A stretch of 64,000 nt of DNA from Rhizobium sp. BK602. Its GTDB lineage: Bacteria; Pseudomonadota; Alphaproteobacteria; Rhizobiales; Rhizobiaceae. Position numbers and translations under genes: made by a program. The notes below the pieces were generated by a model, which saw only the letters and a list, made by a program, of their open reading frames with translations, made no database searches and was not told where the DNA came from. The stretch's first letter is position 1, and every line of letters begins with the position of its first letter. The stretch is from assembly GCF_014195095.1 (NCBI RefSeq), contig NZ_JACIBC010000003.1, forward strand, positions 186,001-250,000, written 5' to 3'. Shown here piece after piece: positions 2,213 through 20,883 of the stretch.

Positions 2213-2944
2213 ATGCGCCTATTGCTCGTCAATCCCAACACCACCGCTTCGATGACGGAAAAGGCGGCGGTCGCGGCTCGCGCCGTCGCCGCAGCCGGCA
2301 CACAGATCATTGCCGCCACGTCGCGGATGGGACCGCCCTCCATCGAGGGATATTACGATGGCGCGCTCGCCGTGCCCGGTCTGCTGAGCGAGCTCAAGGA
2401 ACGGCGAGCCGAGGGCTACGATGCGGCGATCATTTCCTGCTTCGACGATACCGGCCTCGAGGCGGCGCGCGCCTTTTCGGATGTGCCGGTTCTCGGGCTT
2501 TGCGAGTCGGCCGTCGTCACCGCCGGCCTGCTGGCGCAGCGCTTTACTGTGGTGACGACACTGGAGCGTTCGCGCGTGCTGATCGACAATCTCGTCAGGC
2601 ATTACGGCATGGGAGCCCGCGCCAAGGTGAGAGCCTCCGATATTGCCGTATTGGAGCTTGAGGATGGCGCCTCCGGCGCCATCGGCAAATTGCGGGCAGA
2701 GATCGAACGGGCACTGGACGAGGACGGGGCGGAAGCAATCGTGCTCGGCTGCGCCGGCATGGCGGATCTGGCGCGTAAGCTGCAGGAGATCTACGGCGTG
2801 CCCGTGATCGATGGCGTCGCAGCCGCGGTCAAACAGGCCGAGGCGCTGGTCTCGCTCGGTCTCTCCACCAGCAAGCACGGCTCCTACGCCGCACCGCTCG
2901 CAAAATCCTTTACCGGCGCGATGAGTGGTTTTTCTCCGGCCTGA
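2213..2944 (+). CDS. Asp/Glu/hydantoin racemase family protein
   Basis: 243 residues. It begins with the family motif LLLVNPNTT. The two catalytic cysteine motifs are both present: SCFDDTG with Cys76 and LGCAGM with Cys180. Hydantoin racemases of rhizobia are known to use a Cys76/Cys181 pair, so this is a credible active racemase, probably of a 5-substituted hydantoin. Other members of the family act on Asp/Glu or are maleate isomerases, so the substrate is not certain. It starts 4 bases after the permease stop, which suggests that the importer supplies its substrate or a related nitrogen compound. No hydantoinase or carbamoylase is visible here. Confidence 0.82.
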   Translation: MRLLLVNPNTTASMTEKAAVAARAVAAAGTQIIAATSRMGPPSIEGYYDGALAVPGLLSELKERRAEGYDAAIISCFDDTGLEAARAFSDVPVLGLCESAVVTAGLLAQRFTVVTTLERSRVLIDNLVRHYGMGARAKVRASDIAVLELEDGASGAIGKLRAEIERALDEDGAEAIVLGCAGMADLARKLQEIYGVPVIDGVAAAVKQAEALVSLGLSTSKHGSYAAPLAKSFTGAMSGFSPA

Positions 2945-2987
2945 AGGTCTTATGCGATAGAGTCGCAAATCGGGCCGTGGATTGCGT

Positions 2988-3317
2988 TCATCGGCGCACC
3001 GCGCCCACCCGTGCCAGCACCTCATTGGGGATGGCATAGCGCTGGATGATATCGCGATTGTTCCTGAGGCCGCAGATTTCCCGCTGGATGAAGAAAGCCC
3101 AGACGGCATCGGAAGCCTTGTTCAGAAGGTTTTCGCGCTCGTCCCCACTATGACGCTCCGGGTTCCACGCCCGCAGATCGGCGAGCGCGGTTTCCAACTT
3201 CAGCCCATGCCGGCCAAGGGAGCTCGCGCGCTCGGCCATGAGCTCATATTCAAGCACGTTGAAACCGCTGTCGGTCGAATGAAACTGTCTAAGAGATTGC
3301 GGCGGGCGAACACTCAT
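2988..3317 (-). CDS. DUF6665 family protein
   Basis: 109 residues, soluble, with no membrane segment. The core FNVLEYELMAERASSLGR ... AVWAFFIQREICGLRN ... YAIPNEVLARVG is a pattern I recall from a small conserved rhizobial family (DUF6665). It looks mainly helical. An AGGA about 9 bases upstream supports the start. It points toward the plus-strand racemase gene (convergent). Function unknown; no catalytic motif is visible. Confidence 0.65.
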   Translation of the reverse strand: MSVRPPQSLRQFHSTDSGFNVLEYELMAERASSLGRHGLKLETALADLRAWNPERHSGDERENLLNKASDAVWAFFIQREICGLRNNRDIIQRYAIPNEVLARVGAVRR

Positions 3318-3418
3318 CGGGACCGATCCTCCAGATTGGAGACCATGTTAGCCGATCATTCCGGTGAGGGCGATAGGCTTCGGAGCCGCCATGCGGGTGG
3401 ATCGGTGTTCCCAAAGCC

Positions 3419-3568
3419 TCAAGGAGCTGGCGAGCCGACGAGCTGAAAATATCCCCAGGCCGCCGCGAACACCGCCAATATGGCGAGGACGACAAGCAGC
3501 TTGCGCAGCCCAGGGCGCGGCGGCTTGGGGGGCGCCGGTCTTCGAAATTGGATGACGTTGTCGTTCAT
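3419..3568 (-). CDS. Small single-pass membrane protein, hypothetical
   Basis: A 49-residue reading frame with GAGGGCAA just before the ATG. The protein has a short polar N-terminus (MNDNVIQFRRP), a proline-rich basic stretch (PAPPKPPRPGLRK), one hydrophobic helix (LLVVLAILAVFAAAWGYF, about residues 24-41) and a short tail. This is the layout of small N-in inner-membrane proteins. It lies upstream of and co-directional with the DUF6665 gene, about 100 bases away. The coding call rests on the ribosome site and the clear membrane topology. Function unknown. Confidence 0.55.
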   Translation of the reverse strand: MNDNVIQFRRPAPPKPPRPGLRKLLVVLAILAVFAAAWGYFQLVGSPAP

Positions 3569-3871
3569 TTGCCCTCAGCGGCCGAATATCATTCCTCCTC
3601 CTAGTTCGCGCAAATCCTCCCGGCGATCAATAGAATCGTCCGTCATCCCCAGGCAAAATCGGATGGCATTCCGGTTCCCATCTGTGCGTATCGGCTCGCC
3701 CACGACTTCTCAGCGAAAAGCGTGCGTCGAGCACGCTCATGTGTTTCGCAACTTATTTCCTCACTTTGGCGCGTGAAGAGAAAGCCGTTTCTTATAATCC
3801 TTTTTGTCTACGTATTTTATAGATTACTGAAGCGGTGCCGCGGCGCCGATACGACAATCGGATGACCCCAT
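3569..3871. other. Intergenic region upstream of the first monooxygenase gene
   Basis: 303 bases with no convincing reading frame on either strand. The right half is AT-rich and contains the candidate regulatory element at 3807-3823. The left end would also hold the promoter of the small minus-strand membrane protein gene. Confidence 0.5.
3807..3823. promoter_or_regulatory. Candidate TCTA-N9-TAGA operator/promoter element (site D)
   Basis: An inverted repeat TCTA-N9-TAGA in an AT-rich stretch, ending about 48 bases before the start of the monooxygenase gene at 3872. Similar AT-rich TCTA/TAGA sequences lie at 20784-20817, 24579-24598 and 56723-56742, all upstream of sulfur-related genes. A LysR-type (CysB/Cbl/SsuR-like) site is one possibility; the identity is inferred. 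Confidence 0.35.
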
Positions 3872-4864
3872 ATGTCCTATCTCTTGAGCCTTCTCGACAA
3901 AAGCCCCATCGAAGCCGGCAAAAGCGCGACCGATGCGCTGCGGGCGACCGCAACGCTGGCGATCAGGGCCGAGGAGCTTGGCTATCACCGTTTCTGGGTG
4001 GCCGAGCACCACAATATGGCGAGCCTGGCAAGCTCGGCGCCGGAGGCCTTGATCGGCTATCTCCTTGCCAAGACATCGAAGATCCGCATCGGCTCCGGCG
4101 GCGTGATGCTGCAGCATTACAGCGCCTACAAGGTGGCCGAGACCTTCAATCTGCTTTCCTCGCTGGCGCCTGGACGCGTCGATCTCGGGGTCGGCAAGGC
4201 GCCGGGCGGCTTTCCCTTGTCGACTCGGGCGCTACAGGCAGCGGTCGATCCGGAACGCAAGCCGAATTTTGCCGATCAGCTCACCGACATCAACACCTAT
4301 CTCTCCGCCGAAACTTCGGCCGATGTTGCCGTCGCCACGCCGCTCCCGTCAACCGCGCCGGAGCGCTATCTGCTCGGCGCCTCGGTCGATAGCGCCAAGC
4401 TGGCGGCGGAGAAGGGCTGGGAACTGGTATTTGCCGGCCATCTGAACGGCGATCCCGACAATCTGCGCAAGACCTTCGAGGCCTATGAGCAGGCCAGCGG
4501 CGGCAAAAGCCCGATCCTGGCGCTGGCCGCCTTTGCCGCCGAAACCGAGGAGCAGGCGCGCGTGCGCGTCGGCGATCTGCGCATCGTCAAGCTGTTCCTT
4601 CCCAATGGCCAGACCGTCAATGTCGGCAGCGAGGAGCAGGCGGCGGAATTCGCCCGCCAGGCCGGGGTCAGCGATTACCGGACCGAAGAGAAGGTGCCGA
4701 GCGTGCTGCACGGCACGGCGCAACAGATCCGCAAGGAGCTGGATGAGCTGCACCGCCACTACGGCGTCAAGGAATTCATCCTCGATACGCCAGCGCTGAC
4801 GGCGGCCGAACGCCTCTCCTCCATCGAGCTGCTCGCCAAGGAGCGGCTTTCGCTTGCCGCCTGA
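3872..4864 (+). CDS. Luciferase-like (LLM) FMN-dependent monooxygenase, MsnO8 type
   Basis: 330 residues of the bacterial luciferase-like TIM-barrel superfamily. Visible family signatures are YHRFWVAEHHNM (about 47-58), KIRIGSGGVMLQHYS (about 70-84) and LAPGRVDLGVGKAPGG (about 98-113). MsnO8-type members have no assigned substrate in most genomes; they use reduced flavin and O2. It is the first gene of a co-directional run, about 25 bases before the DszA-type gene. The Bacillus ytm/ytn sulfur operon also contains a luciferase-like gene of about this length (ytmO), so oxidation of a thioether or similar sulfur compound is a reasonable inference. Confidence 0.85.
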   Translation: MSYLLSLLDKSPIEAGKSATDALRATATLAIRAEELGYHRFWVAEHHNMASLASSAPEALIGYLLAKTSKIRIGSGGVMLQHYSAYKVAETFNLLSSLAPGRVDLGVGKAPGGFPLSTRALQAAVDPERKPNFADQLTDINTYLSAETSADVAVATPLPSTAPERYLLGASVDSAKLAAEKGWELVFAGHLNGDPDNLRKTFEAYEQASGGKSPILALAAFAAETEEQARVRVGDLRIVKLFLPNGQTVNVGSEEQAAEFARQAGVSDYRTEEKVPSVLHGTAQQIRKELDELHRHYGVKEFILDTPALTAAERLSSIELLAKERLSLAA

Positions 4865-4889
4865 TATCAAACCCAAGAGGACTGATCCC

Positions 4890-6239
4890 ATGGCTCAAAA
4901 GAACATCACTTTCGGCATCATGCTGCATGGGCCTGGCGGCCACATGAATGCCTGGAAACATCCGAGCGGTCCGGCGGACGCCAGCGTCAATTTCGGCTTC
5001 TTTGTCGATACCGCGCGCAAGGCCGAAGAGGCGGGCATCGCGTTTGCCTTCGTCGCCGACGGCCTTTATATCAACGAGCAGTCGATCCCGCATTTCCTCA
5101 ACCGCTTCGAGCCAATCTCGATCCTGTCTGCGCTCGCCGCCTCGACCTCGAAGATCGGTCTGGTCGGCACGGTCTCGACCTCCTACAGCGATCCCTTCAC
5201 CATCGCCCGCCAATTCGGTTCCATCGACCTGATCAGCGGCGGCAGGGCCGGATGGAATGCCGTGACGTCGCCACTGGAAGGTTCCGGCCGCAACTATAGT
5301 CGCGAGCATCCGGATCATGAGCTGCGTTACGAGATCGCGGAAGAATATATCGACGTCATCAAGGGCCTGTGGGATTCCTGGGATGACGACGCCTTTGTCC
5401 GCAATCGCGAGACCGGTGTGTTCGTCGACAAGACCAAGCTGCGGCGGCTGAACCACAAGGGACGTTTCTTCCGCGTCGAAGGGCCGTTGAACATCGGCCG
5501 ATCGAAGCAGGGCCAGCCGGTCGTGTTCCAGGCCGGCGCCTCCGATTCCGGTATCAGGCTCGCGGGCAAGCATGCCGACGCCGTCTTTACCAATGGCGGG
5601 CCGATCGAGGAGGCGAAGGCCTTCTATCGCCAGCTCAAGGATAGCGTCATCGCCCATGGCCGCAGCGCCGCGGAAGTCGGCGTCTTTCCGGGCATCGGAC
5701 CGATCATCGGCGCGACGAAGGAGGAGGCCGAGGCCAAGTATCAGGCGATCCGCGATCTCGTCACCATCGAAGAGGCGCTGGCCTATCTCGGCCGCTTCTT
5801 CGATCACCATGATTTCAGCGTCTATCCGCTGGACGAACCTTTCCCCGATCTTGGCGATATTGGCCGCAATAATTTCCGCGCCACCACCGATCGCATCAAG
5901 AAGACGGCTCGCGAGAAGGGCCTGACGTTGCGTCAGGTCGCGCTCGATTCCGCAACACCCCGCACCGCCTTCATCGGCACGGCGGAGCACATCGCCGACG
6001 AGATCATCCGCTGGGTGGATCAGGACGCCGCCGATGGCTTCATCCTCGGCTTCCCGGTGATCGCCGAAGGCTTCGACGACTTCGCCAGGCATGTGCTGCC
6101 GATCCTGACCGAGCGCGGCTACTTCGATCCCGTGCTGAAGGGCACGACGCTGCGCGACCATCTGGGGCTGACCTATCGCGAAAGCCGCTATGCCGCCTCC
6201 AAGGATGAGGCCGAACAGGAAAGGGCGATCCGCGCCTGA
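4890..6239 (+). CDS. NtaA/SnaA/DszA-family FMN-dependent monooxygenase
   Basis: 449 residues, the usual length for the family that includes nitrilotriacetate monooxygenase, dibenzothiophene-sulfone monooxygenase and the Bacillus YxeK/YtnJ enzymes. Signatures: GGHMNAWKHP near 16, FAFVADGLYI, LVGTVSTSYSDPF, SGGRAGWNAVTS, LWDSWDDDAF, VFQAGASDSG. The ATG at 4890 is preferred to an upstream one that would overlap the previous gene, because AAGAGG lies just before it. It lies between another monooxygenase and an M20 hydrolase gene. The analogous Bacillus enzyme oxidatively cleaves an N-acetyl-S-alkylcysteine; the same role is inferred here. Confidence 0.88.
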   Translation: MAQKNITFGIMLHGPGGHMNAWKHPSGPADASVNFGFFVDTARKAEEAGIAFAFVADGLYINEQSIPHFLNRFEPISILSALAASTSKIGLVGTVSTSYSDPFTIARQFGSIDLISGGRAGWNAVTSPLEGSGRNYSREHPDHELRYEIAEEYIDVIKGLWDSWDDDAFVRNRETGVFVDKTKLRRLNHKGRFFRVEGPLNIGRSKQGQPVVFQAGASDSGIRLAGKHADAVFTNGGPIEEAKAFYRQLKDSVIAHGRSAAEVGVFPGIGPIIGATKEEAEAKYQAIRDLVTIEEALAYLGRFFDHHDFSVYPLDEPFPDLGDIGRNNFRATTDRIKKTAREKGLTLRQVALDSATPRTAFIGTAEHIADEIIRWVDQDAADGFILGFPVIAEGFDDFARHVLPILTERGYFDPVLKGTTLRDHLGLTYRESRYAASKDEAEQERAIRA

Positions 6240-6257
6240 GGCGCGGACGGGCGGATC

Positions 6258-7445
6258 ATGAACGTCGTAACCCAGCATCATCGACCGGCGGATGATATCG
6301 ACAAGGGGATCGCCTCCTTCATCGAGGAGATCATCGAGCTTCGTCACGATCTGCATCGCTATCCGGAACTGGCTTTCCAGGAGCGGCGGACCAGCAAGAT
6401 CGTCGCCTCCCTGCTTTCCTCCTGGGGCTATGAGGTGACGACCGGTGTCGGCGGCACCGGCGTCGTCGCTACCCTTCGGGGCGGCGACGGCGAGAAGCGC
6501 ATCGGCATCCGCGCCGACATGGACGCGCTGCCGATCGAAGAAGCCACCGAGCTTGCCTATGCCAGCGACAATCCGGGCGTCATGCATGCCTGCGGTCATG
6601 ACGGGCACACGTCGATCCTGCTGGCCGCCGCGCGCTATCTCGCCGAAACCCGCCGCTTCTCCGGCGTGCTGACGCTGATCTTCCAGCCGGCCGAGGAGAT
6701 CGGGGCAGGGGCGCGCAAGATGATCTCGGACGGGCTTTTCGAGCGCTTTCCGGTCGATGCCGTCTTCGGTCTGCACAATTGGCCGGGCGTGCCGCTCGGT
6801 CAGTTCGGCTTCGTCGCCGATGCGGCCATGGCCTCGGTCGATCAGGCCATCATCCGCTTCGTCGGCAAGGGCGGCCATGGCGCCGAGCCGCACAAGTCGG
6901 TCGATCCGGTCTTGACCTCGGCGGCCTTCATCACGGCGGTCCAGAGCGTCGTATCGCGCAATGTCGATCCGCAGGACATGGCGGTGGTGACCGTCGGTTC
7001 GATCCATGGCGGATCGGCCTCGAACGTCATTCCGGAGAGCGTGGAACTGAAGCTGACCATGCGCGCTTTCAGCGAGACGGTGCGCCAGCGCCTGCAGGAG
7101 CGCATTCCGGCGCTTGCCCGCGCCCAGGCCGAGAGCTTCGGGGCAGAGGCGGATGTGAACTACCGTCTTGGCTTTCCGGCTCTGATCAACCATCGCGGCG
7201 AAACCGCATTCGCGCAGACGGTGGCACAGGAGGCTTTCGGGGAGGGGCAGGTCGCCAGGGATTTCCGGCCGCGCACGGCGAGCGAGGATTTCGCCTTCAT
7301 GCTGCTGGAGCGGCCGGGCAGCTATCTCTTCGTCGGCAATGGCGACAGCGCACCGCTTCATAGCGCCCATTACAATTTCGACGACCGGATCATCGCACCA
7401 GCCGCCCGCTATTGGGTGCGGCTGGTCGAAACCTTCCTTTCATGA
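6258..7445 (+). CDS. M20 family amidohydrolase (N-acyl-cysteine deacetylase candidate)
   Basis: 395 residues, M20D subfamily (hippurate hydrolase, IAA-amino acid hydrolase, SndA/YxeP). The di-metal site is intact: HACGHDGH (110-117), PAEEIGAG with Glu146/147, GLHNWPG with His173, and a late His in the C-terminal catalytic lobe. GGHGAEPH marks the lid domain. No signal peptide, so cytoplasmic. Genes for a DszA-type monooxygenase and a GNAT acetyltransferase flank it, the combination used in B. subtilis to N-acetylate, oxidise and deacetylate S-modified cysteines. The N-acetyl-cysteine substrate is inferred from that context. Confidence 0.85.
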   Translation: MNVVTQHHRPADDIDKGIASFIEEIIELRHDLHRYPELAFQERRTSKIVASLLSSWGYEVTTGVGGTGVVATLRGGDGEKRIGIRADMDALPIEEATELAYASDNPGVMHACGHDGHTSILLAAARYLAETRRFSGVLTLIFQPAEEIGAGARKMISDGLFERFPVDAVFGLHNWPGVPLGQFGFVADAAMASVDQAIIRFVGKGGHGAEPHKSVDPVLTSAAFITAVQSVVSRNVDPQDMAVVTVGSIHGGSASNVIPESVELKLTMRAFSETVRQRLQERIPALARAQAESFGAEADVNYRLGFPALINHRGETAFAQTVAQEAFGEGQVARDFRPRTASEDFAFMLLERPGSYLFVGNGDSAPLHSAHYNFDDRIIAPAARYWVRLVETFLS

Positions 7446-7470
7446 CCATGACAACAGGATGGCTGACGAG

Positions 7471-7995
7471 ATGAGTGACAGCTTTCTCTACACGACCCCT
7501 CTCGATCCCCGCGCCAAGCCGCTGATCGACGAGCTGATCCATGAATATGACAGCCGCTACGGCAACTATTTCAGCGACGAGGGTGCGGCGGCCGAGCTCA
7601 ACCGCTATCCGCCCGAGTTCTTCGCGCCGCCGGACGGCAATTTCCTGCTGCTGATCCGCGATGGTGAAACCATCGGCGGCGGCGCCTTCAAGCGCTACGA
7701 CGAGTACACCGCCGAGTTCAAGCGCATCTGGACCCGCCATGACCTGCGCCGGCAGGGGCTGGCGCGCAAGGTGCTGGTGGAGTTGGAGGCGCAGGCGGCG
7801 CGCCAGGGCTATTCCCGCATCTACCTCACCACCGGCTTTCGCCAGCCCGAGGCTGTCGGCCTTTATCTCGGCTACGGCTACACCGCGCTCTTCGACCAGA
7901 CCGTCGATCCGGAGATCCACAAGACGCTGCCTTTCGAAAAGGACGTCAGCCATCTGGCCGAACCGCAATTGCTGGCGGCCGGCGGCAACAGGTGA
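7471..7995 (+). CDS. GNAT family N-acetyltransferase (S-alkyl-cysteine acetylase candidate)
   Basis: 174 residues from the ATG at 7471; an in-frame ATG at 7459 would add four residues, and neither start has a strong ribosome site. The acetyl-CoA binding segment LRRQGLARKVLVELE lies near residues 91-105, followed by YSRIYLTTGFRQPEAVGLY and GYGYTALFD, which close the fold. Members of this length include B. subtilis SnaA (YtmI) and YxeL, which acetylate the amino group of S-modified cysteines. Placement between an M20 deacetylase and an amino-acid importer supports that role by inference. Confidence 0.82.
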   Translation: MSDSFLYTTPLDPRAKPLIDELIHEYDSRYGNYFSDEGAAAELNRYPPEFFAPPDGNFLLLIRDGETIGGGAFKRYDEYTAEFKRIWTRHDLRRQGLARKVLVELEAQAARQGYSRIYLTTGFRQPEAVGLYLGYGYTALFDQTVDPEIHKTLPFEKDVSHLAEPQLLAAGGNR

Positions 7996-8033
7996 AACGG
8001 CGCGAGACCGATAATCCATAAAAGGGAAACATC

Positions 8034-9812
8034 ATGGCACTGACGACAGATTTCGCCGGCATCGACCCCGGCAGCAGGAGCGCCGAGCAAAAGCAGGATT
8101 ATTCCCGCTACCGGATCGTTCCCGCCCGCCATCCCTGGCGGTTTGCGGGCACCATCTTCGCCGCCCTCGTCATTGCAGCCGTGCTCTATTCCACCTTCAC
8201 CAATCCGCGCTGGGGCTGGGGCGTCTTTGCCGAATGGTTCTTCGCTGAACCCGTACTCGTCGGCCTCGGCAGGACGCTGCTGCTGACCGTACTCGCCGCC
8301 ATTTCCGGCTCGATCCTCGGCACGGCGCTGGCGCTTGCCCGTGTCTCCAAATCGCCGCTGCTGTCCGGCCTGTCCTGGGGCTATATCTGGCTGCTGCGCT
8401 CGATCCCGATGATCGTGCTGCTGCTCGTGCTGAACAATCTCGGCTATCTCTACGAGACGATCCGGATCGGCGTGCCCTTCACCGACACGGTGCTTCTCGA
8501 TTACCCGACCGTGCAATTGCTGACGCCCTTTGCCGCCGCCTTCCTGGGCCTGACGCTCAACCAGTCGGCCTTTTTCGCGGAGATCGTGCGCGGCGGCATT
8601 CTCTCGGTCGATCAGGGTCAGCTCGAGGCCGCCTCCGCGCTCGGCCTGCCGCGCCGCCGCCAGGCCTTCCGCATCGTCCTGCCGCAAGCCATGCGCACCA
8701 TCCTGCCCACAGGCTTCAACGAAATCATCGGATTGGCGAAAAGCACGTCGATGGTCTATGTCCTCGCCCTACCGGAACTCTTCTACACGGTCCAGGTCAT
8801 CTATCGCCGCAATCTGGAAGTCATCCCGTTGCTGATGGTCGCGACCGTCTGGTATCTGGTTATCATGACGGTGCTGTCGATCGTGCAGCACTATATCGAA
8901 CGCTATTTCTCCAAGGGTGCGTTGCGCAATCCGACGCCGCTGCCCTTCCAGTCCTTCTTCGCCCGCTTCCAGCGCCCATTGCCGGTGATCGAGATCTCGA
9001 CGGATGTCGCGCGCAAGGCCGGTTTCAGCGATGCCGCAAGCTTTCGGGCAGCCGGCGGCGCCGTACGCATTCATGGCATTTCGAAAAGCTTCGGCACGCT
9101 GAAGGTACTCGACAACGTCGAACTCAACCTTCCGCCGGGCAGTGTCACCGCCATTCTCGGCCCTTCGGGTTCCGGCAAGTCGACGCTGCTGCGCGCCATC
9201 AATCATCTGGAACGCGTCGACAGCGGCTTCATTTCCATCGACGGCGATTTTATCGGTTACAGCCAGAAGGGCGACACGCTCTATGAGCTGAAGGAAAAGG
9301 ACATTCTGAAGAGCCGCGCCGATATCGGCATGGTCTTCCAGAGCTTCAACCTCTTTCCGCATCTGACCGTGCTGGAAAATCTGATCGAAGCACCGATCCA
9401 GGTTCGGGGCGCAAGCCGCGAGGAGGCGGTGAGGCTGGCGCAGGAACTGCTGGCACGCGTCGGCCTCAGCGACAAGATCAATGCCTATCCCCGCCAATTG
9501 TCCGGCGGCCAGCAGCAGCGTGTCGCGATCGCCCGCGCGCTGGCGCTTCGCCCCAAGGTGCTGCTCTTCGATGAGCCGACCTCGGCGCTCGATCCGGAAC
9601 TTGTCGGCGAAGTGCTCGATGTCATCAAGGAACTTGCCCGCACCGGCACGACGCTCGTCATCGTCACCCACGAGGTCGGGTTTGCCCGCGAGGTTGCCGA
9701 TACGGTGGTTTTCATGGAGGGCGGCCACATTCTCGAAGTCGGCCCGCCATCCCGAATCTTCAATGACGCCGAACATCCGCGTACGCGCGCGTTCCTGGCA
9801 AAAGTTCTCTAG
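8034..9812 (+). CDS. Fused amino-acid ABC transporter permease-ATPase
   Basis: 592 residues with two complete domains. Residues about 30-290 form a His/Glu/Gln-type permease with several membrane segments and an EAA loop ([22 protein letters not shown]). Residues about 340-592 form an ATPase with Walker [10 protein letters not shown] (about 376), signature [15 protein letters not shown] (about 489), Walker [14 protein letters not shown] and the switch histidine in VTHEVGFA. Most polar amino-acid importers encode these as separate proteins; no stop or frameshift separates them here. Two binding-protein genes follow. Cystine or an S-alkyl-cysteine is a likely cargo given the neighbours. Confidence 0.93.
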
Positions 9813-9887
9813 CGAAAACCGGCCCCACGTCGCGAAAGGAAGAAACTATGCGCAACCACAACCATAGAGAGAACAAGAGGTAGATAC

Positions 9888-10832
9888 ATGACTATCTTCA
9901 AGAAGACGACTTCCCTGGTGGCCGGCATGATTGCCGTGGCTGTCCTCGGACTCGGCTCCGCCCACGCGGCGGAAAAATTCAACCTCAGCCCGGATATCTC
10001 AAACCGGCTGCGCGCCGAAAAGGACGAGGCGGCGATCAAGGCGATTGCGCCGGGCTTCAAGTTCGTCAATCCCGGCAAGTTCACGGTTGCGATCAGCCCC
10101 TGGGACCCGCCGGTCTCGACCTATGCCACGGACGCCAAGACCGTGGTCGGCACCGACCCCGATCTCGCGCAGCTGATTGCGGATTCGCTCGGGCTGCAGC
10201 TGGAAATCGTTGCCGTCGCCTGGGAAGACTGGCCGCTCGGCGTCTCCTCCGGCAAGTATGATGCCGTCATCAGCAATGTGACGGTCACCGAGCAGCGCAA
10301 GGAGAAGTTCGATTTCTCCACCTATCGCAACGACGTTCTGGGCTTCTACGTCAAGAAAGACAGCAAGATCACCGCGATCAAGGAACCGAAGGATGTCGCC
10401 GGCCTGAAGGTCATCACCGGCGCCGGCACCAACCAGGAAAAGATCATCCTGGAATGGGACCGGGAAAATGTCGCCGCAGGGCTGAAGCCGATCGAAGTGC
10501 AATATTATGACGACCGCGCCGCCGCCGATCTGGCGATCCAGTCCGGCCGCGCCGATGTCGAATTCAATCCCAACGCCTCGCTTGCCTATAGCGCATCCAT
10601 CAAGGATGCGACCAGGCTGGTCGGCACCGTCAGCGGCGGCTGGCCGGTATCCGCCGAAATCGCGGTGACAACGCGCAAGGGCGCGGGTCTCGCCGACGCC
10701 GTCGCCATCGCCATCAACGACCTGATCAAGCAAGGAAAATACGGCGAGGTGCTGAAGCGCTGGGGCCTGACCTCCGAGGCCATTACCGAATCCCGCACCA
10801 ACCCGCCGGGCCTGCCCAAGAGCGGCTCTTAA
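9888..10832 (+). CDS. Amino-acid ABC transporter substrate-binding protein (copy 1)
   Basis: 314 residues with a signal peptide (hydrophobic LVAGMIAVAVLGLGSAHAA, cleavage probably after AHA near 28). The SBP_bac_3 fold is shown by KTVVGTDPDLAQLIADSLG, SGKYDAVISNVTVTEQRKEKFDF and GAGTNQEKI. AAGAGG sits 7 bases before the ATG. It is closely related to the next gene product over its whole length, including shared LKP(I/L)E(V/L)QYYDD and NPPGLPK endings, so the two arose by tandem duplication. It serves the upstream fused permease-ATPase. Confidence 0.92.
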   Translation: MTIFKKTTSLVAGMIAVAVLGLGSAHAAEKFNLSPDISNRLRAEKDEAAIKAIAPGFKFVNPGKFTVAISPWDPPVSTYATDAKTVVGTDPDLAQLIADSLGLQLEIVAVAWEDWPLGVSSGKYDAVISNVTVTEQRKEKFDFSTYRNDVLGFYVKKDSKITAIKEPKDVAGLKVITGAGTNQEKIILEWDRENVAAGLKPIEVQYYDDRAAADLAIQSGRADVEFNPNASLAYSASIKDATRLVGTVSGGWPVSAEIAVTTRKGAGLADAVAIAINDLIKQGKYGEVLKRWGLTSEAITESRTNPPGLPKSGS

Positions 10833-10852
10833 TCGGTTCCGAAGGAATATGC

Positions 10853-10878
10853 GGCCGGCTCGCCCTCACGGGCCGGCC
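10853..10878 (+). promoter_or_regulatory. Stem-loop between the two binding-protein genes
   Basis: GGCCGGC (10853-10859) pairs with GCCGGCC (10872-10878) around a 12-nt loop; there is no T-run. It lies 20 bases after the first binding-protein stop and probably acts as a partial terminator or 3'-end stabiliser. Role inferred. Confidence 0.5.
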
Positions 10879-10905
10879 TTCATGAAAATGACTAGGGAGA
10901 ACCAC

Positions 10906-11847
10906 ATGACAGGCATACCGGCCATCCGGGCATGTTCATTCGTTCTGATGATGGCGGCACTCACGTCCGTCAGCACGCTTCATGCCGCCGATCTGACCTT
11001 CGACCTCAGCCCGGAGCAGCCGAACCGTCTTCACGTCGGACGAGACGAAAAAGCGGTTGCAGCCATCCCCAAGGGCTTCAAATTCGTAACGCCGGGTGTG
11101 TTCACCGTTGCGGTGGCGCCCGGCGGCCCGCCGCTTGCCACCTATGCGACGGACGCCAAGACCGTCGTCGGTGCTGATCCGGATATCGCCTCGGCCATTG
11201 CCGACAGCCTCGGCCTCAAGCTCGAGCTCCTCCCGGTCGCCTGGGCGGACTGGCCGCTGGGCCTGACCTCGGGCAAGTATGATGCCGTCATCTCCAATGT
11301 CGGCGTCACCGAGCAGCGCAAGGAGAAGTTCGATTTCTCCACCTACCGCCAGGGCCTGCACGGCATCTATGTGAAGGCCGACAGCAAGATCGGCCCGATC
11401 AAGGAGCCGAAGGATGCGGCGGGTCTGCGCTTCATCGTCGGCGCCGGCACCAATCAGGAACGCATCCTGCTCGAATGGAGCAAGGAAAACGTCGCCGCCG
11501 GCCTGAAACCGTTGGAGCTGCAATATTACGACGACGATGCCGCGAGCCTGCTGGCCCTGGCGTCGGGCCGCGCCGATGTGATCGTCCAGCCGCATGCGCA
11601 GCTCGTCTATATCGCCGCCCGCGACAAGAACATCAGGAGCGTGGGAACACTGAGCGCCGGCTGGCCGGACCGTTCGGATGTGGCCGTCACCACGCGCAAG
11701 GGGAGCGGGCTCGCCGACGCGCTGACGGTCGCCACCAACGACCTGATTGCCAACGGCACCTACGGTAAGATCCTTGGCCAGTGGCATCTGGCGGAAGAAG
11801 CGCTGCCGAAATCGGAGACCAATCCGCCGGGTCTACCGAAATACTGA
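10906..11847 (+). CDS. Amino-acid ABC transporter substrate-binding protein (copy 2)
   Basis: 313 residues with a signal peptide (ACSFVLMMAALTSVSTLHAA). The ATG at 10906 is chosen because AGGGAGA lies 5 bases before it; in-frame ATGs at 10882 and 10888 have no such site and would put a charged stretch before the signal. Same SBP_bac_3 motifs as the preceding gene (KTVVGADPDIASAIADSLG, SGKYDAVISNVGVTEQRKEKFDF, GAGTNQERI). The ligand-pocket region has diverged more than the rest (ADVIVQPHAQLVYIA against ADVEFNPNASLAYSA), which suggests a different cargo preference. Confidence 0.9.
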   Translation: MTGIPAIRACSFVLMMAALTSVSTLHAADLTFDLSPEQPNRLHVGRDEKAVAAIPKGFKFVTPGVFTVAVAPGGPPLATYATDAKTVVGADPDIASAIADSLGLKLELLPVAWADWPLGLTSGKYDAVISNVGVTEQRKEKFDFSTYRQGLHGIYVKADSKIGPIKEPKDAAGLRFIVGAGTNQERILLEWSKENVAAGLKPLELQYYDDDAASLLALASGRADVIVQPHAQLVYIAARDKNIRSVGTLSAGWPDRSDVAVTTRKGSGLADALTVATNDLIANGTYGKILGQWHLAEEALPKSETNPPGLPKY

Positions 11848-11882
11848 ACGGCGACGAGCATTAGAATCGAAGGAGTGACGAG

Positions 11883-12926
11883 ATGAGCGGCCGCAAGGTT
11901 TCAATCAGCCATATCGGCTTTCTGACCCCCGGCAACTATCCGGACGACGACCCGTTGTTCGGCCTGGAGCAGACGCTCCAGCAGTTGCGCTATGGCGAAG
12001 AGCTGGGTTTCGACAGCGCCTGGGTCCGCCAGCGGCATCTGGAACCCGGGATTTCGTCGGGCAGCGCCTTTCTGGCCGCGGCGACCCAACGCACCAGCCG
12101 CATCCAGCTGGGAACGGCCGTCATTCCCATCGGCTATGAAAGCCCTTACCGGCTGGCGGAGGATCTTGCGACCGTCGATGTCCTGTCCCGTGGACGACTG
12201 AATGTCGGCGTCAGCGCCGGCCGGCCGCTGCATGCCGATCTGATCGCGCCGCTGGTCTTCGACAGCGGCTGGGAAAACAACGATTTCTCCCATGATCGCG
12301 TCCTGCGCTTCGCCGACAATCTGCGCGGTACTTACGTTGGCGATGACGACACCTTCATCAAGACGCCGTTCGGCCCGATCCGGCCGCGTCTGCAGCCCTA
12401 TGCCAAGGGTTTGGTCGACCGGATCTGGTATGGCAGCGGCTCGCAGCGCTCGGCCGAATGGGCGGGGCGTAACGGCTTCAATCTTTTGACGGGCAACGTG
12501 ATAACCGGCGAGGGGACGGACGATTTCTTCGTTGCGCAATCGCGGCTGATCGAGACGTTCCGCGGCACCGCAGGCCCGCGGCGCCGCGTCGCGCTCGGAC
12601 GCGTCATCGTGCCTTTCGACAGCGCCGACGCCACGACCCGCCGCCGCTATCAGGACTATGCCGCCGGCCGCAACGGACGGACGCTGACACCGCAGGGTGA
12701 GAAACGCACCCTGTTCGCCCGCGACATCATCGGCACTTCGGAACAGATCCTTGAACAGCTTTTCGCTGACCCGATCCTGCCGAAGGTCACCGAATTGCGG
12801 CTGGAGCTGCCATACGAGTTCGAACATGAGGAATACCGCCAGATCCTCCACGATTTCGTGACGCGGATCGCCCCGGAGCTTGGCTGGACGGGTGCGCTTA
12901 CGACAGCAGACCGGCGCTATGGCTGA
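11883..12926 (+). CDS. LLM class flavin-dependent oxidoreductase
   Basis: 347 residues of the luciferase-like superfamily: LQQLRYGEELGFDSAWVRQRH (about 32-52), RIQLGTAVIPIGYESPYRLAED, LSRGRLNVGVSAGRP. It differs from the DszA-type enzymes in this window by its shorter length and lack of the AWKHP-like N-terminal motif. GGAGTGACGAG upstream supports the start. It follows the two binding proteins and precedes a cystathionine-lyase-type gene, so it probably belongs to the same salvage operon. Substrate unknown. Confidence 0.82.
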   Translation: MSGRKVSISHIGFLTPGNYPDDDPLFGLEQTLQQLRYGEELGFDSAWVRQRHLEPGISSGSAFLAAATQRTSRIQLGTAVIPIGYESPYRLAEDLATVDVLSRGRLNVGVSAGRPLHADLIAPLVFDSGWENNDFSHDRVLRFADNLRGTYVGDDDTFIKTPFGPIRPRLQPYAKGLVDRIWYGSGSQRSAEWAGRNGFNLLTGNVITGEGTDDFFVAQSRLIETFRGTAGPRRRVALGRVIVPFDSADATTRRRYQDYAAGRNGRTLTPQGEKRTLFARDIIGTSEQILEQLFADPILPKVTELRLELPYEFEHEEYRQILHDFVTRIAPELGWTGALTTADRRYG

Positions 12927-12999
12927 ACCTGCGGCCAGGCGTTCTGTGGACGCCTGTGTCAATCGATGAAATTGCCGTCCCCACATCAAGGCAGACCCC

Positions 13000-14250
13000 A
13001 TGGCAGATGACAATAAGGATGCTTCGCCCGCTCTCGGTCCCAATACCAAGCTCGTCCGGGCCGGATACGATCCCTTCGACTATCACGGCTTCATCAATCC
13101 GCCGGCAGTGCGCGCCTCGACGGTTCTCTTCCCGACGGCCGAGGCGATGGAGCGGCACGAGCAGAAATACACCTATGCGACGCGGGGAACGCCGACAACC
13201 GATGCGCTCTGCGATGCGATCAACGAACTCGAGGGTGCGGCAGGAACCATCCTGGTGCCATCCGGGCTTGCCGCCGTCACTCTGCCGTTCCTGACCTATC
13301 TCTCACCAGGCGGCCATGCGCTGATCGTCGATTCCGTCTACGGCAACGTCCGGCATTTCTGCGACACGATGCTTGCCCGTTTCGGCATCGAGGTGGAATA
13401 CTACGATCCCGGTATCGGCGCGGCGATCGAAACGCTTTTCAAACCGAATACAAAGCTGGTGCATCTGGAGGCGCCTGGTTCCAACACCTTTGAGATACAG
13501 GATGTGCCCGCCATCACCGCCGTTGCCCAGCGGCATGGCGCGATCACGACCATGGACAATACCTGGGCGACGCCGCTCTATTTCCGGCCGCTCGATTTCG
13601 GTGTCGATGTCTCGATCCAGGCGGCAACGAAATATCCGGCGGGCCACGCCGACGTCCTCATGGGCACCGTCTCGGCCAATGCAAAACAGTGGAAGCGCCT
13701 CAGGCAGGCCAATGGCGCGCTCGGCATCTGCGGAACCGCCGACGACGCCTACCAGGTGCTGCGCGGATTGCGCACGATGGGCGTCAGGCTTGAGCGCCAT
13801 CAGGCGAATGCTCTCGACATCGCGACCTGGCTGGAGGCGCGCGACGATGTCGCGCGTGTGCTGCATCCGGCCTTGCCGAGTTTTCCCGGCCACGACATCT
13901 GGAAGCGGGATTTCAAGGGCGCAAGCGGGGTCTTTTCCTTCGTGCTTTCCGTTGGACGGCGGGAGGATTTCAAAGCCAAGGCACGGGCCTTCCTCAATGG
14001 CCTTTCACTGTTCGGGCTCGGCTATTCCTGGGGCGGTTTTCCGAGTCTGGCGCTGGAGGTCGATCTGAGCGACCGAATCCTGTTGAAGCCACCGGAGGAG
14101 GGGCCTCTGCTGCGCCTTCAGATCGGCTTCGAGGATGTCGCCGATCTCAAGGCCGATCTCGAGAAGGGCTTCGCGGCGGCGAAAAGGTCTGATGGCCCTT
14201 CAGACGGTCCCGCGGCCGTTTCTCCACGAGGTCTCGGTCCATTGATGTGA
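13000..14250 (+). CDS. Cystathionine beta-lyase-type PLP-dependent enzyme
   Basis: 416 residues of the Cys/Met-metabolism PLP family. Motifs: YATRGTPTTDAL near 58, EGAAGTILVPSGLAAV near 80-95, MDNTWATPLYFRPLDFGVDVSIQ, and ATKYPAGHAD with the PLP lysine Lys211. The PS-GLAAVTLPFL and TWATPLYF variants are closer to MetC (C-S beta-lyase) than to MetB or MetZ. As last gene of the block it could release a thiol and pyruvate from a cysteine conjugate or cystathionine. The exact substrate cannot be told from sequence alone. Confidence 0.85.
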   Translation: MADDNKDASPALGPNTKLVRAGYDPFDYHGFINPPAVRASTVLFPTAEAMERHEQKYTYATRGTPTTDALCDAINELEGAAGTILVPSGLAAVTLPFLTYLSPGGHALIVDSVYGNVRHFCDTMLARFGIEVEYYDPGIGAAIETLFKPNTKLVHLEAPGSNTFEIQDVPAITAVAQRHGAITTMDNTWATPLYFRPLDFGVDVSIQAATKYPAGHADVLMGTVSANAKQWKRLRQANGALGICGTADDAYQVLRGLRTMGVRLERHQANALDIATWLEARDDVARVLHPALPSFPGHDIWKRDFKGASGVFSFVLSVGRREDFKAKARAFLNGLSLFGLGYSWGGFPSLALEVDLSDRILLKPPEEGPLLRLQIGFEDVADLKADLEKGFAAAKRSDGPSDGPAAVSPRGLGPLM

Positions 14251-14257
14251 TGCACGC

Positions 14258-14276
14258 CGCCGGGCTCCACCCGGCG
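14258..14276 (+). terminator. Possible terminator after the lyase gene
   Basis: CGCCGGG and CCCGGCG form a 7-bp perfect stem with a CTCCA loop, 8 bases after the lyase stop. The sequence just after is T-rich (CATTGTTGATATTG) but lacks an uninterrupted T-run. It would end the 3872-14250 block. Confidence 0.45.
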
Positions 14277-14407
14277 CATTGTTGATATTGCAACGTGGCG
14301 TCATTCAAGCCGGTGGTGGTTTCAGCTTTTTATTGCAATTTTGGCCATTCCTATATAGGGCCACATCTCATTAATGGGTCTCAAATTTCAAATCTAAAAT
14401 TTCAAAA

Positions 14408-15301
14408 ATGAATTTCGAGCAGGCAATCATTCGTAAGTCCCCACCGCGTAAGAAACATAGTGCGCTATTCCGGTTGCTTCTTCGCCACATCGTCAGGGGT
14501 GTGGTCGCGGGAAAGCAAGGAGAGAAGGAGCATTCTCTCTTTTCCAAAAGCATTTCCGGAGATTTTCCGAGTAGCGGCAACGTCATACTGGCGGCCTGCA
14601 ACGACGATTATTTCAGAAGGTTTGCGATCGACCTTGTGCGTTCGGTCGATTCACATGGGGTTCCTCAGAAGCTACATCTTCATTTGCTGGAGCCGTCTCA
14701 AGCTGTCCTTGAGGAGGTCGCTCAGTTGCAGACCACTCTCGGGCACGTCCAGCTTACGACTACCATCGATCCGTGTGTTCTCGCTGAAACGATACCCTAC
14801 CGTACCGTCTACTACACGGCAGCCCGTTTTCTCTTGGCGCCCATGCTGCTTAGGGAAGGTGTCGATCGACTGCTGATCATCGATGTCGACGCCGTCATGA
14901 ACAAGTCGCCGTGGCAGTTCTTCGGCAATCAGGCGGCCCTGCGAAGCGGTGGATTCATTTTCCGGCGTGAAAAACGCAAGCACTGGTATCGCGTGCTGGC
15001 GTCGGCGGTTTTCCTGAACAGCTCCGTCGGATCCGTTCGTCTCGCGGAAAGCCTCGCTTGCAGTCTGGCTCGAACCCTGAAATACAAGCCCCGGTATCAC
15101 ATCGACCAGATCCTGCCGTACTATATCTGCGAACTGGCCAAGCACCGGTTCTGGGATTTCGCGACCTTCGACATTCCAAAGGAAATCATGGGTTATTCCT
15201 ATGAGAGCGAAGCCGCGTTCTGGACGGTGAAAGGAAAATCCAACATCGATCAATTCCTTACGGAACGTCACAAGCTCCTCTCCTCTCGCGAGGCATCCTG
15301 A
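14408..15301 (+). CDS. Probable glycosyltransferase (GT-A fold, GT8-like)
   Basis: 297 residues. A Rossmann-like start (GNVILAACNDDYFRRFAIDLVRSV), a conserved tyrosine-rich segment (YRTVYYTAARFLLAPMLL) and a metal-binding DxD motif, Asp159-Val-Asp161 in LLIIDVDAVMNKSPW, match GT8-like glycosyltransferases. There is no good ribosome site before the ATG; the preceding bases are AT-rich (TTTCAAAAATG) and no earlier in-frame ATG exists. The first 45 residues are very basic. The upstream region is lower in GC than the neighbouring genes, which fits acquired DNA. Acceptor and donor are unknown; a surface polysaccharide role is plausible because a GT2 gene follows. Confidence 0.65.
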   Translation: MNFEQAIIRKSPPRKKHSALFRLLLRHIVRGVVAGKQGEKEHSLFSKSISGDFPSSGNVILAACNDDYFRRFAIDLVRSVDSHGVPQKLHLHLLEPSQAVLEEVAQLQTTLGHVQLTTTIDPCVLAETIPYRTVYYTAARFLLAPMLLREGVDRLLIIDVDAVMNKSPWQFFGNQAALRSGGFIFRREKRKHWYRVLASAVFLNSSVGSVRLAESLACSLARTLKYKPRYHIDQILPYYICELAKHRFWDFATFDIPKEIMGYSYESEAAFWTVKGKSNIDQFLTERHKLLSSREAS

Positions 15302-15580
15302 CTTCGCGAAAGCGGATTAGCGACGGTGACGAGGGGCTTGACGGCCTCCGACAGCGGCCGAGTGTATAAGGCGAATATGCCCCGGGGCCATTCTAATGCC
15401 ACAAAGCTGGCGAGGCTCGCGTTTCTACAGACGATACAAGCTCATCTTCGCCACCCGTGGGTAGCATGTCTGTAGCGGCCGCTTCAGCATCTGGAGGGCT
15501 GTGCTTCCCGAACGGGCTTTCCACAGGACCTGAATGAGAAGGTTCGCCGCGACCAAAGCAGAATTGCGAGGTTCAATGCG
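15302..15580. other. Intergenic region between the two glycosyltransferase genes
   Basis: 279 bases. No reading frame with a ribosome site or recognisable product was seen, and no clear hairpin. It probably holds the promoter for the GT2 gene. Confidence 0.4.
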
Positions 15581-16645
15581 ATGCAGTCCATCCCAGACCG
15601 TGCGCCAGTTTCCATCATCATCTCGAATTACAATTACGCACGCTTTCTCCGCCGCGCTGTCGATAGCGCGTTGGAGCAGACTTACGACAATGTCGAGGTC
15701 ATCGTCGTCGATGATGCGTCGACCGATGAATCGGCCGACATCATAGCCTTCTACGGATCGCGAATCCGGGCCTGCCGAAAAAAGACCAATGGCGGGCATG
15801 GCGCGGCGTTCAATACCGGCTTTGCCGAAAGCCACGGCGATATCGTGCTTTTTCTCGATGCCGATGATTATCTCTATCCGAACGCGGTGGCGGACATTCT
15901 CGATGCCTGGGACGACGAGATCGCCCAGATGCAATTCCGATTGCACATCGTCGATGAGGACCAGGAGATCAAGGACGTGTTTCCGCCCCCGGAAATGCCG
16001 TTCGATTCCGGCGACGTCATGCCGAAGCTTCTGCAAAGAGGGCGCTACCAGACAACCGTGACCAGCGGCCTGGCGTTCAGGCGCGCGGCGCTGGAGGCGG
16101 TCATGCCGGTTCCAGAGGCCGATTTCCGCCAGGGCGCGGACGGCTATCTGGTCACTGTCGCGCCGCTTCACGGCAAGGTGGCATCGATCGAAGCCTGCCT
16201 CGGCGCCTATCGCATCCATGGCGCCAACCATTCGGTCTTTGCCGAAAAGCTCGGCCAGCGCGCGCGCTGGCGCATGGAGCATGATTTCCATCGGGTGGAA
16301 GCCCTGTCGGAGCAGGCGGCCGAGGTCGGACTGGTCGTGCCGCCGGATGTCACGCTTCACGATCCCGTGCATCTGGAGGAGCGGCTGGCATCGCTTTGCA
16401 TAGACCGGGCACACCATCCCATGGTCAGCGATTCCAGATTTGCGCTGGGCCGGGCCGGCGCGGTCGCCAGCATGGAAATGAATGCTTCGCTGCGCCGCCG
16501 TACTATGCTTGCGGCATGGTTCCTGTCCGTCGGCGTGCTGCCGCGGCGCATGGCGCAGGCGGTCCTATCCTGGAAGCTCGTTGCCTCGTCCAGGCCCGCC
16601 TTCCTGCTGCGGATTTCAAAAACCATCCGCCATGCGATCGGCTAG
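15581..16645 (+). CDS. Glycosyltransferase family 2
   Basis: 354 residues. The N-terminal 230 residues are a GT2 domain: VSIIISNYNYARFLRRAVDSAL at 9-30, VIVVDDASTDESADII near 40-55, NGGHGAAFNTGF, the DADDYL metal-binding motif near residues 92-97, and a later ADGYLVTVAPLHG segment. The C-terminal 100 residues are helical and ill-defined. GAGG about 10 bases before the ATG supports the start. Likely transfers a sugar to a cell-surface glycan; specificity unknown. It is co-directional with the GT8-like gene but 279 bases away. Confidence 0.85.
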   Translation: MQSIPDRAPVSIIISNYNYARFLRRAVDSALEQTYDNVEVIVVDDASTDESADIIAFYGSRIRACRKKTNGGHGAAFNTGFAESHGDIVLFLDADDYLYPNAVADILDAWDDEIAQMQFRLHIVDEDQEIKDVFPPPEMPFDSGDVMPKLLQRGRYQTTVTSGLAFRRAALEAVMPVPEADFRQGADGYLVTVAPLHGKVASIEACLGAYRIHGANHSVFAEKLGQRARWRMEHDFHRVEALSEQAAEVGLVVPPDVTLHDPVHLEERLASLCIDRAHHPMVSDSRFALGRAGAVASMEMNASLRRRTMLAAWFLSVGVLPRRMAQAVLSWKLVASSRPAFLLRISKTIRHAIG

Positions 16646-16653: not shown

Positions 16654-16681
16654 GAATAGCGGCGCAATCGCGCCGCTATTC
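16654..16681. terminator. Bidirectional hairpin between convergent genes
   Basis: A perfect 12-bp stem (GAATAGCGGCGC / GCGCCGCTATTC) with an AATC loop. It lies just after the GT2 stop and overlaps the stop codon (16676-16678) of the convergent monooxygenase gene, so it can end transcripts from both sides. No T-run. Confidence 0.65.
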
Positions 16682-18073: not shown

Positions 18074-18110
18074 TTTCAGCTCCTTGTGGGGTCGGAGGGT
18101 AGGCGGGATG

Positions 18111-19178
18111 TCAGGAATTGGAGCGGCCGAGGCCGTAGGTCAGCGCAAGCGCCCCGACGAGCACCGCGCCCTTGACGAAATCCTGGGTGTAGTAGGGGGC
18201 GTTCAGCATGGTCAGCCCGTTGAGCAGCACGCCGACGAAAACCGCGCCGACCAGCGTGCCGAGCACATTCGGACGGCGCAGGCCGAGTACCGCAAAGCCG
18301 ATCAGCGAGGCAGCGACGGCATCCATCAACAACGAGCCGCCGGACGAGACATCGCCACGGCCGACGCGGGCGGCGATAACGATGCCGCCGAGCGAGGCCA
18401 GCGTGCCGGATATGACATAGGCGAGGGTCTTCAGCCGCGTCGTGGAGGCACCGGCGAGCCGCGTTGCCACTTCATTGCCGCCGGTCGCAAACAGCAGCCG
18501 GCCGATGCGCGTCCGCTCGGTGAGCACGAACAGTGCCAACGCGACAAGGATCATGAGGATGACCGAAACCGGCACCGTTCCGAACAGGCTGTAGCGTCCG
18601 ATCAGCAGGAAGCTGGGATCATAACTGCCGGCCGCCTTGGAGCCATCGGGCAGGATCAATCCGGAAGAGATCGAACGTCCGGCAGTCGGAATCAGCTGCA
18701 GGCCGGACAGCAGGAACATCATCGACAGCGTCGCCAGCAGGTCCGGCACCTTCAGACGGACGATGATAAAGGCATTGATCAGGCCGACCGCCGCGCCGAA
18801 GGCCAGCACCAGCGGCACGGTGGCAAAGGCATCGAGCTGCCAGACGATCATCGCATAGCTCGCGGCCATGACGCTGGAGGCGGCGACCGCGCCGATCGAG
18901 AGATCAAACCCGCCGACGGCAAGCGTCACGGTAACGCCGGCGCCAAGAATGGCGACGACAGAGACCGCCTGCAGGATGCTCATGAGATTGCCGACATTGA
19001 TGAAGGCGGGCTGGGCGGCGGTGAAGCCGACGATGAGCAGGGCGAGCAGGATGAAGACGGCACCCGACCGCAGCACGGCGCTGACGCCGGCGAGCCAGCC
19101 GCTGGCCGGGTCAGCAGCAGACGTCGGCTCGGTGCGCTCCACCGGTTGCGAGAAACTGTCATTGTCGACGGATGTCAT
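18111..19178 (-). CDS. CUT2 (ribose-type) ABC transporter permease
   Basis: 355 residues with 8-10 hydrophobic segments and RbsC/BPD_transp_2 signatures: LAVGGFDLSIGAVAASSV near 128-145, LIRLKVPDLLATLSMMF-like segment, GRYSLFGTVPVSV and ATGGNEVATRLAGAST. In this class one permease forms a homodimer and works with a double-domain ATPase. Its ATG overlaps the ATPase stop by an ATGA junction. The long polar N-terminus (about 30 residues) is normal. The organosulfur neighbours make a simple sugar cargo doubtful. Confidence 0.88.
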   Translation of the reverse strand: MTSVDNDSFSQPVERTEPTSAADPASGWLAGVSAVLRSGAVFILLALLIVGFTAAQPAFINVGNLMSILQAVSVVAILGAGVTVTLAVGGFDLSIGAVAASSVMAASYAMIVWQLDAFATVPLVLAFGAAVGLINAFIIVRLKVPDLLATLSMMFLLSGLQLIPTAGRSISSGLILPDGSKAAGSYDPSFLLIGRYSLFGTVPVSVILMILVALALFVLTERTRIGRLLFATGGNEVATRLAGASTTRLKTLAYVISGTLASLGGIVIAARVGRGDVSSGGSLLMDAVAASLIGFAVLGLRRPNVLGTLVGAVFVGVLLNGLTMLNAPYYTQDFVKGAVLVGALALTYGLGRSNS

Positions 19179-20817: not shown

Positions 20818-20883
20818 TGACGCGTCGCCGGGCAACCCTGTCCGTCAGACGACGCTTTTCGATCGACCATAAGGAACACGGCA

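Follow-up and report, generated by a model that had tools for sequence, protein, structure and literature searches.

A stretch of 64,000 nucleotides from Rhizobium sp. BK602 (contig NZ_JACIBC010000003.1, positions 186,001 to 250,000; G000:C3:186001-250000 in our numbering, hereafter the window) carries at 3872-12926 a block of eight genes, A to H, which probably forms an operon for sulfur limitation whose products take up S-substituted cysteines and release the cysteine. In the pathway set out in passages of PMC10863075, N-acetylation is followed by CmoO sulfoxidation, cleavage by CmoJ to a sulfenic acid, reduction and deacetylation, and the pathway is called “widely distributed in soil bacteria”. 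Neither Rhizobium nor Alphaproteobacteria came up when the text of that article was searched for such terms. In the route that we propose for the window, an importer encoded by genes E, F and G would take up the S-substituted cysteine, and the acetyltransferase D would acetylate its amino group. The CmoO-like enzyme A would then oxidize the thioether to a sulfoxide, and the CmoJ-type enzyme B would cut the C-S bond of the sulfoxide to give an aldehyde and N-acetylcysteine sulfenic acid. After reduction of the sulfenic acid by a cell thiol, the amidohydrolase C would take off the acetyl group to yield cysteine. Gene H encodes a further luciferase-like oxygenase, to which we assign no step.

The initial annotation described a single co-directional block of named gene families, and this description was borne out: nine open reading frames (ORFs) run in the same direction at 3872-14250, and their families were confirmed with Pfam and NCBIfam models at curated cut-offs. 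The conserved unit consists of the eight genes A to H and ends at 12926, before a cystathionine beta-lyase gene. Each of the 20 complete loci from other Rhizobium genomes holds all eight in this order, which indicates that the grouping is not due to chance. In a 21st locus the contig begins within gene B, and B to H then follow in order. A close CmoJ (84-94% identity) was found in 21 of the 36 other genomes of the genus that were searched, the best match in the remaining 15 being at most 45%, and of 384 other genomes sampled from the class only two gave a CmoJ match at or below E 1e-140. Relatives of gene B (E 1e-120 or better) occur in 252 records of the plasmid collection, including 120 from Rhizobium and 75 from Pantoea. 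Neighbours were counted in the best 80 CmoJ loci of the collection scan (the named loci) when they lay no more than 9 kb from CmoJ and on its strand; the gene maps come from single-sequence searches, an iterated GNAT profile having drawn in CmoJ. An MsnO8-type gene accompanies CmoJ in 59 of these loci, an M20 gene in 47, the GNAT type of the window in 19 and the type of gene H in seven, all of them alpha- or beta-proteobacterial. In the alphaproteobacterium G156 (locus L146, 6640-8466), CmoJ and a GNAT domain stand in a single ORF of 609 amino acids, which supports a joint role. A scan of the window with Rfam at gathering scores gave no match, a sigma-70 promoter scan of 2900-14600 found none against 2.6 expected, and terminator-like sites in the region were at chance level (10 found, 9.9 expected). 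Among the matches listed in a search of the open-licence literature, which leaves subscription papers outside its scope, no title indicates such an operon in Rhizobium.

By its sequence kinship gene B is CmoJ and not ScmK, and the match is therefore to the ytm/cmo type of operon and not to yxe/scm. It is 57% identical to B. subtilis YtnJ (CmoJ), and in a search of the PDB the best entry was 3sdo (656 bits), titled “nitrilotriacetate monooxygenase”, followed by YtnJ (548 bits) and, outside these, by a match at 301 bits. A role like that of DszA, DmoA or EDTA monooxygenase was rejected, since the corresponding scores were 257, 196 and 199 bits. The paralogues of gene B in its own genome are more distant (39-44% among those listed); this genome, a 6.33 Mb assembly in 17 contigs, holds at least 11 monooxygenases of the NtaA/DmoA family above the curated cut-off. 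A quick tree of 134 rows placed the window together with Bacillus and Listeria CmoJ in a CmoJ clade of 104 rows (Shimodaira-Hasegawa-like approximate likelihood-ratio support 100), and the five ScmK rows and the paralogues from the genome of the window fell outside it. A more careful tree, built from the window and 73 of the 150 CmoJ rows collected and rooted on ScmK, recovered a CmoJ clade of 67 rows (support 100/100). Rhizobium rows nearly identical to one another had been left out of the trees beforehand, as had a few odd second copies.

The careful tree also bears on the origin of the gene. The alpha/beta-proteobacterial group (10 rows, 100/99) is sister to a group of Bacillus methanolicus, Sporosarcina and G471 (13 rows, 100/100) among the Firmicutes, and because of this nesting we infer that the alpha/beta cmoJ gene came from Firmicutes. 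A second proteobacterial group of 12 rows stands apart and comprises nine gammaproteobacteria and one row each from Rhizobium, Comamonas and Burkholderia; Acidovorax and Pseudomonas rows form a third. Forcing the alpha/beta group and the second group together was rejected (log-likelihood 62.8 lower; approximately unbiased (AU) test, p 0.00185), the groups having been named after the first tree had been seen. The CmoJ of Rhizobium sp. ICMP 5592 (L110) falls among those of the enterobacterial type.

The sequence before gene A contains two blocks that are conserved when the window is compared with 20 other Rhizobium loci: an inverted repeat and the box TCTACGTATTTTATAGA (Table 1), whose pattern TCTA-N9-TAGA is present in all 21 aligned loci. 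A search of the whole genome with up to two mismatches returned 21 matches at 18 places, palindromic places being counted twice in such totals, and in four other genomes the box and the reversed pattern gave 19 vs 5, 20 vs 5, 8 vs 0 and 28 vs 3 matches. Among the adjoining genes, viewed at 17 of the 18 places, are those for the siroheme synthase CysG, an Rrf2 regulator divergent from CysH and a CysD-like protein, the flavin mononucleotide (FMN) reductase MsuE and an SsuA-family protein. CysG, CysH (as adenosine phosphosulfate reductase), MsuE, SsuA and Rrf2 scored above curated cut-offs, and the CysD-like gene was named from its sequence; the ssuA site falls within the ORF as called, the true start of which is probably further in. 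Other matches adjoin an SsuD-like enzyme facing an M20 gene, peptide- and amino-acid-binding proteins and a dioxygenase-like gene, and several appear to be chance matches (groES, a cation efflux gene and a glycosyltransferase-like gene, named from sequence). Since the box is shared with cysG, cysH/rrf2, msuE and ssuA, we predict that the operon is under sulfur-limitation control. At locus L183 (G000:C2:526510-529526) the Rrf2-family gene is divergent from cysH with the box between them, and among 28 loci from four other genomes this site was found again in G006 and G009. The best equivalog model for the Rrf2 protein is CymR (78 bits, cut-off 195), barely over IscR (77 bits). We regard the protein as a candidate regulator of the rhizobial sulfur regulon, and predict from the position of its gene only that it would bind the box. 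No title among the open-licence matches listed concerns an Rrf2 sulfur regulator of rhizobia. Elsewhere in the window, at 16676-21930, there is a second, divergent organosulfur-type cluster with an NtaA/DmoA-family monooxygenase, a BPD_transp_2 permease and an ATP-binding cassette (ABC) ATPase on the minus strand and a Peripla_BP_4 protein on the plus strand; between its halves lies a copy of the box with three mismatches (20784-20800), of which 0.63 per window are expected by chance.

Gene A is 45% identical to the protein at the CmoO position of locus L139, which itself scores 327 bits with TIGR03558. Both proteins, each encoded beside cmoJ, lie above the cut-off of that model, a match that does not prove orthology within the family, and a tree of MsnO8 proteins without a good outgroup does not prove gene A to be the CmoO orthologue either. 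Gene C carries the motifs HACGHD, PAEE, GLHNWP and LHSAHY, and ScmP, YhaA and YtnL deacetylate N-acetylcysteine, according to passages of PMC12757645. Gene D belongs to a subfamily common to alpha-, beta- and gammaproteobacterial operons (43-49% identity to six gamma members). An importer with two binding proteins is present in the block, and two binding-protein-like ORFs also occur in L139. At L110 and several Paenibacillus loci (L042, L058, L063), CmoJ adjoins genes resembling a peptide-type ABC importer, as judged by size pattern and ATPase match only. With the CmoJ grouping, the MsnO8-type protein at the CmoO position and the box shared with sulfur genes, the initial proposal of a counterpart to the Bacillus S-alkylcysteine operons stands in outline.

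A number of observations weigh against reading the block as an operon for S-substituted cysteines. That reading proceeds from gene content, gene order, conservation, the CmoJ kinship and the box, all of which are observed, to reactions, a substrate and a regulation that are deduced from them. Some relatives of the block are incomplete: L093 has neither M20 nor GNAT, L107 has no called GNAT, G064 combines MsnO8, CmoJ and GNAT without M20 or importer, and in L139 no M20 gene adjoins cmoJ. As to the box, the reversed control pattern also yields four matches in the genome of the window, and the sites before cysG, cysH/rrf2, msuE and ssuA carry two mismatches each. Among the seven named alpha/beta operons checked (L117 and L176 come from one genome), the box is missing from its place in L108 and L113, and L105 has only a version with four mismatches. 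No CmoI-like gene was found among A to H, where the largest intergenic gap, 75 bp, is too short for one; the rest of the genome lay outside this search. In Listeria L039 an ORF of 91 amino acids, which we take to be CmoI, precedes cmoJ. The block also contains no flavin reductase gene, so that the reduced flavin (FMNH2) must come from elsewhere; it would be supplied from outside the block, and the msuE gene of the genome has a similar box before it.

The other points of this kind concern genes C, D and E. According to the initial annotation, placement of the acetyltransferase and the deacetylase in other families would speak against an S-alkylcysteine operon, and here the outcome is divided. 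Gene D is not in the SnaA/ScmL subfamily (24% identity): with the profile of its own subfamily, the SnaA-position protein gave E 0.006, the ScmL-position protein E 8, and the best value among 11 Firmicute loci examined was 3e-5. The M20 enzymes of gammaproteobacterial operons group with those of Firmicute operons and YxeP (22 rows, 100/100), but in the best trees those of alpha/beta operons (8 rows, 100/99) fall outside this SndA/YxeP clade and join, with weak support (82/96), a paralogue from the genome of the window that is 53% identical to gene C. AU tests of a single operon M20 clade, with groups named after the first tree had been seen, disagree: p was 0.0517 in one test, 0.207 in another without three long-branched paralogues and 0.0028 with PDB references (35 of the 79 M20 rows collected, a number that includes the window, with four PDB rows added). 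This is suggestive of a separate branch for gene C, which could serve another N-acyl substrate. The importer parts score under the cystine-transporter cut-offs (gene E, TcyN, 306 vs 406). These results lend some room to the idea that the true substrate is some other N-acyl or thioether compound, such as mercapturates taken up in acetylated form or another organosulfur compound, with C as a general N-acyl amino acid amidohydrolase: outside the alpha/beta operons, its nearest relative is the paralogue just mentioned, and the specificity of importer and GNAT is not fixed by family models or fold searches (models of D, predicted local distance difference test (pLDDT) 79, and of H, pLDDT 83, matched only the general fold, in the latter case that of luciferases). 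Such a role is nevertheless unlikely, since the kinship of gene B with CmoJ, and the MsnO8, M20 and GNAT genes that often stand nearby, indicate N-acetylcysteine adducts.

The initial annotation further had the block end in a C-S lyase, which is not supported as a characteristic of such systems. Gene I, the metC copy, was rejected as a member of the conserved unit: none of the 21 other Rhizobium loci contains a metC-like gene (identity above 50%, more than 40% of its length), and MetC is found on the CmoJ strand within 9 kb in none of the 80 named loci; L113 has a MetC-like gene (97 bits) on the opposite strand. A genus-wide metC is present in all 22 other genomes of the genus searched (69-74% identity to that of the window) and also in the genome of the window (72%). 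The window type (77-80%) occurs beside the genus-wide copy only in G003, G009 and G020, each time on a different contig from the cmo block, and yet in all three it has a box match upstream (one, two and two mismatches), 240-315 bp before metC or the gene preceding it; L025 has additional matches elsewhere. Gene I is thus probably a sulfur-regulon gene that was brought behind the block in this lineage, a local addition sharing the regulon and not part of the pathway by descent. It seems improbable that it constitutes an integral second route of C-S cleavage by direct beta-elimination of the S-alkylcysteine or its sulfoxide. The gene does start 73 bp after gene H, the interval holding no terminator-like site, and its orthologues have a similar box and in two of the three genomes stand behind a cysteine-synthase-like, pyridoxal-phosphate-dependent gene, but the absence of metC from the other Rhizobium loci and from the cmoJ strand of the named loci and the presence of the genus-wide copy argue against such a route, and terminator-like sites being at chance level, their absence says little. 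The window also has a stretch of lower G+C content (14001-16645; 0.554 at 14001-16000), and the glycosyltransferase family 2 gene at 15581-16645 lies in it.

Both Bacillus operon types, ytm-like (L139) and scm-like (L140), are carried by one genome, G598, taken as a member of the B. subtilis group from its CmoJ, which is 84% identical to YtnJ; its ytm-like operon has LysR-like and GNAT-like genes, two binding proteins, two permeases, an ATPase, CmoO and CmoJ. That the block is an S-(2-succino)cysteine (2SC) operon of the yxe/scm type, in which GNAT, monooxygenase and deacetylase would process 2SC with no sulfoxide step (passages of PMC9706529 describe scm and the 2SL lyase), is very unlikely: CmoJ and ScmK do belong to one family, TIGR03860, but gene B is 56% identical to CmoJ and 45% to ScmK of G598 and groups with CmoJ, and the block has a CmoO-type gene; membership in scm was rejected.

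Table 1. Features of the proposed operon and its surroundings (window positions)
Feature	Position	Strand	Evidence or remark
Inverted repeat GAGAAAGCCGTTTCTT	3778..3793	+	Upstream of operon; kept with some changes in window and 20 other Rhizobium loci aligned
Predicted sulfur-regulon box TCTACGTATTTTATAGA (TCTA-N9-TAGA)	3807..3823	+	48 bp 5' of gene A start codon
Gene A, MsnO8-type luciferase-like monooxygenase, CmoO counterpart, proposed sulfoxidase	3872..4864	+	TIGR03558, 332 bits (cut-off 167)
Gene B, CmoJ, N-acetyl-S-alkylcysteine sulfoxide C-S monooxygenase by kinship	4890..6239	+	TIGR03860 (NtaA/DmoA), 502 (cut-off 280)
Gene C, M20 amidohydrolase, proposed N-acetylcysteine deacetylase	6258..7445	+	TIGR01891, 359 bits (cut-off 154)
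Gene D, GNAT, proposed S-alkylcysteine N-acetyltransferase	7462..7995	+	PF00583, 51 (cut-off 20.7); no named subfamily
Gene E, fused polar amino-acid importer permease-ATPase	8034..9812	+	BPD_transp_1 and ABC_tran; TcyN best NCBIfam model
Gene F, SBP_bac_3 binding protein 1	9888..10832	+	Pfam
Gene G, SBP_bac_3 binding protein 2	10849..11847	+	Pfam; 61% to F; start codon may lie further in
Gene H, third luciferase-like monooxygenase	11883..12926	+	PF00296; under all NCBIfam cut-offs
Gene I, second metC copy, cystathionine beta-lyase; local neighbour outside conserved unit	13000..14250	+	PRK05967, 707 bits (cut-off 649)

Farther along the window, 22016-24511 and 56938-63310 contain acyl-CoA-dehydrogenase-like genes, accompanied in the second stretch by luciferase-like monooxygenases and a nitroreductase, as in desulfurisation clusters.

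What could the substrate be? Common bean accumulates gamma-glutamyl-S-methylcysteine, according to passages of PMC3606967, and the terms djenkolic acid and S-carboxyethylcysteine appear in a review of Acacia (PMC9658407). The four plasmid records nearest by gene B are from strains of Calliandra (two), Leucaena and Phaseolus. Together, these compounds and legume-host strains make a plant-derived substrate a fair guess, no more. One may speculate further that the rhizobial operon was assembled independently, from a Firmicute CmoJ, a proteobacterial acetyltransferase, a deacetylase recruited at home and an extra oxygenase, under an Rrf2-type regulon and with S-substituted cysteines of legumes as substrates; we hold this scenario tentatively, as conceivable though rather doubtful. 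If it is true, the substrates would be S-methylcysteine in beans and djenkolic acid or S-carboxyethylcysteine in mimosoid hosts, rather than damage products, and gene H would widen the substrate range. Use of plant S-substituted cysteines would link host chemistry with the sulfur nutrition of the symbiont. The analysis extends a Bacillus pathway to plant-associated proteobacteria and suggests that it was rebuilt there around a single key enzyme of foreign origin. For the rhizobial sulfur regulon it offers a DNA box and a candidate Rrf2-family regulator, both open to direct testing.

The ytm/ytn and yxe operons of B. subtilis had both been proposed as models for the block, and the first is upheld by the position of gene B in the CmoJ clade, whereas the second is not. 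Like ytmI-ytnM (cmo/sna/snd), the block has CmoJ, an MsnO8-type CmoO, a GNAT, an M20 deacetylase, a polar amino-acid importer with two binding proteins and a predicted sulfur control. It differs in that its GNAT is of another subfamily and its M20 enzyme is placed on another branch in the best trees, its permease and ATPase are fused, the luciferase-like gene H is added, and neither a CmoI-like gene nor an adjacent LysR-type gene was seen. With the yxe (scm) operon for 2SC it shares the logic of acetylation, cleavage and deacetylation, but ScmK does not belong to the CmoJ clade, and the scm-like cluster L140 shows no MsnO8-type gene and has a YxeQ-position gene that is absent from the block. 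The CmoJ operons of enterobacteria (Kosakonia, Pantoea, Pectobacterium and others) share with the block MsnO8, CmoJ, the GNAT subfamily and the kind of binding protein; unlike in the block, their CmoJ forms a separate clade, their M20 enzymes are within the SndA/YxeP clade, permease and ATPase are separate, and gene H is absent.

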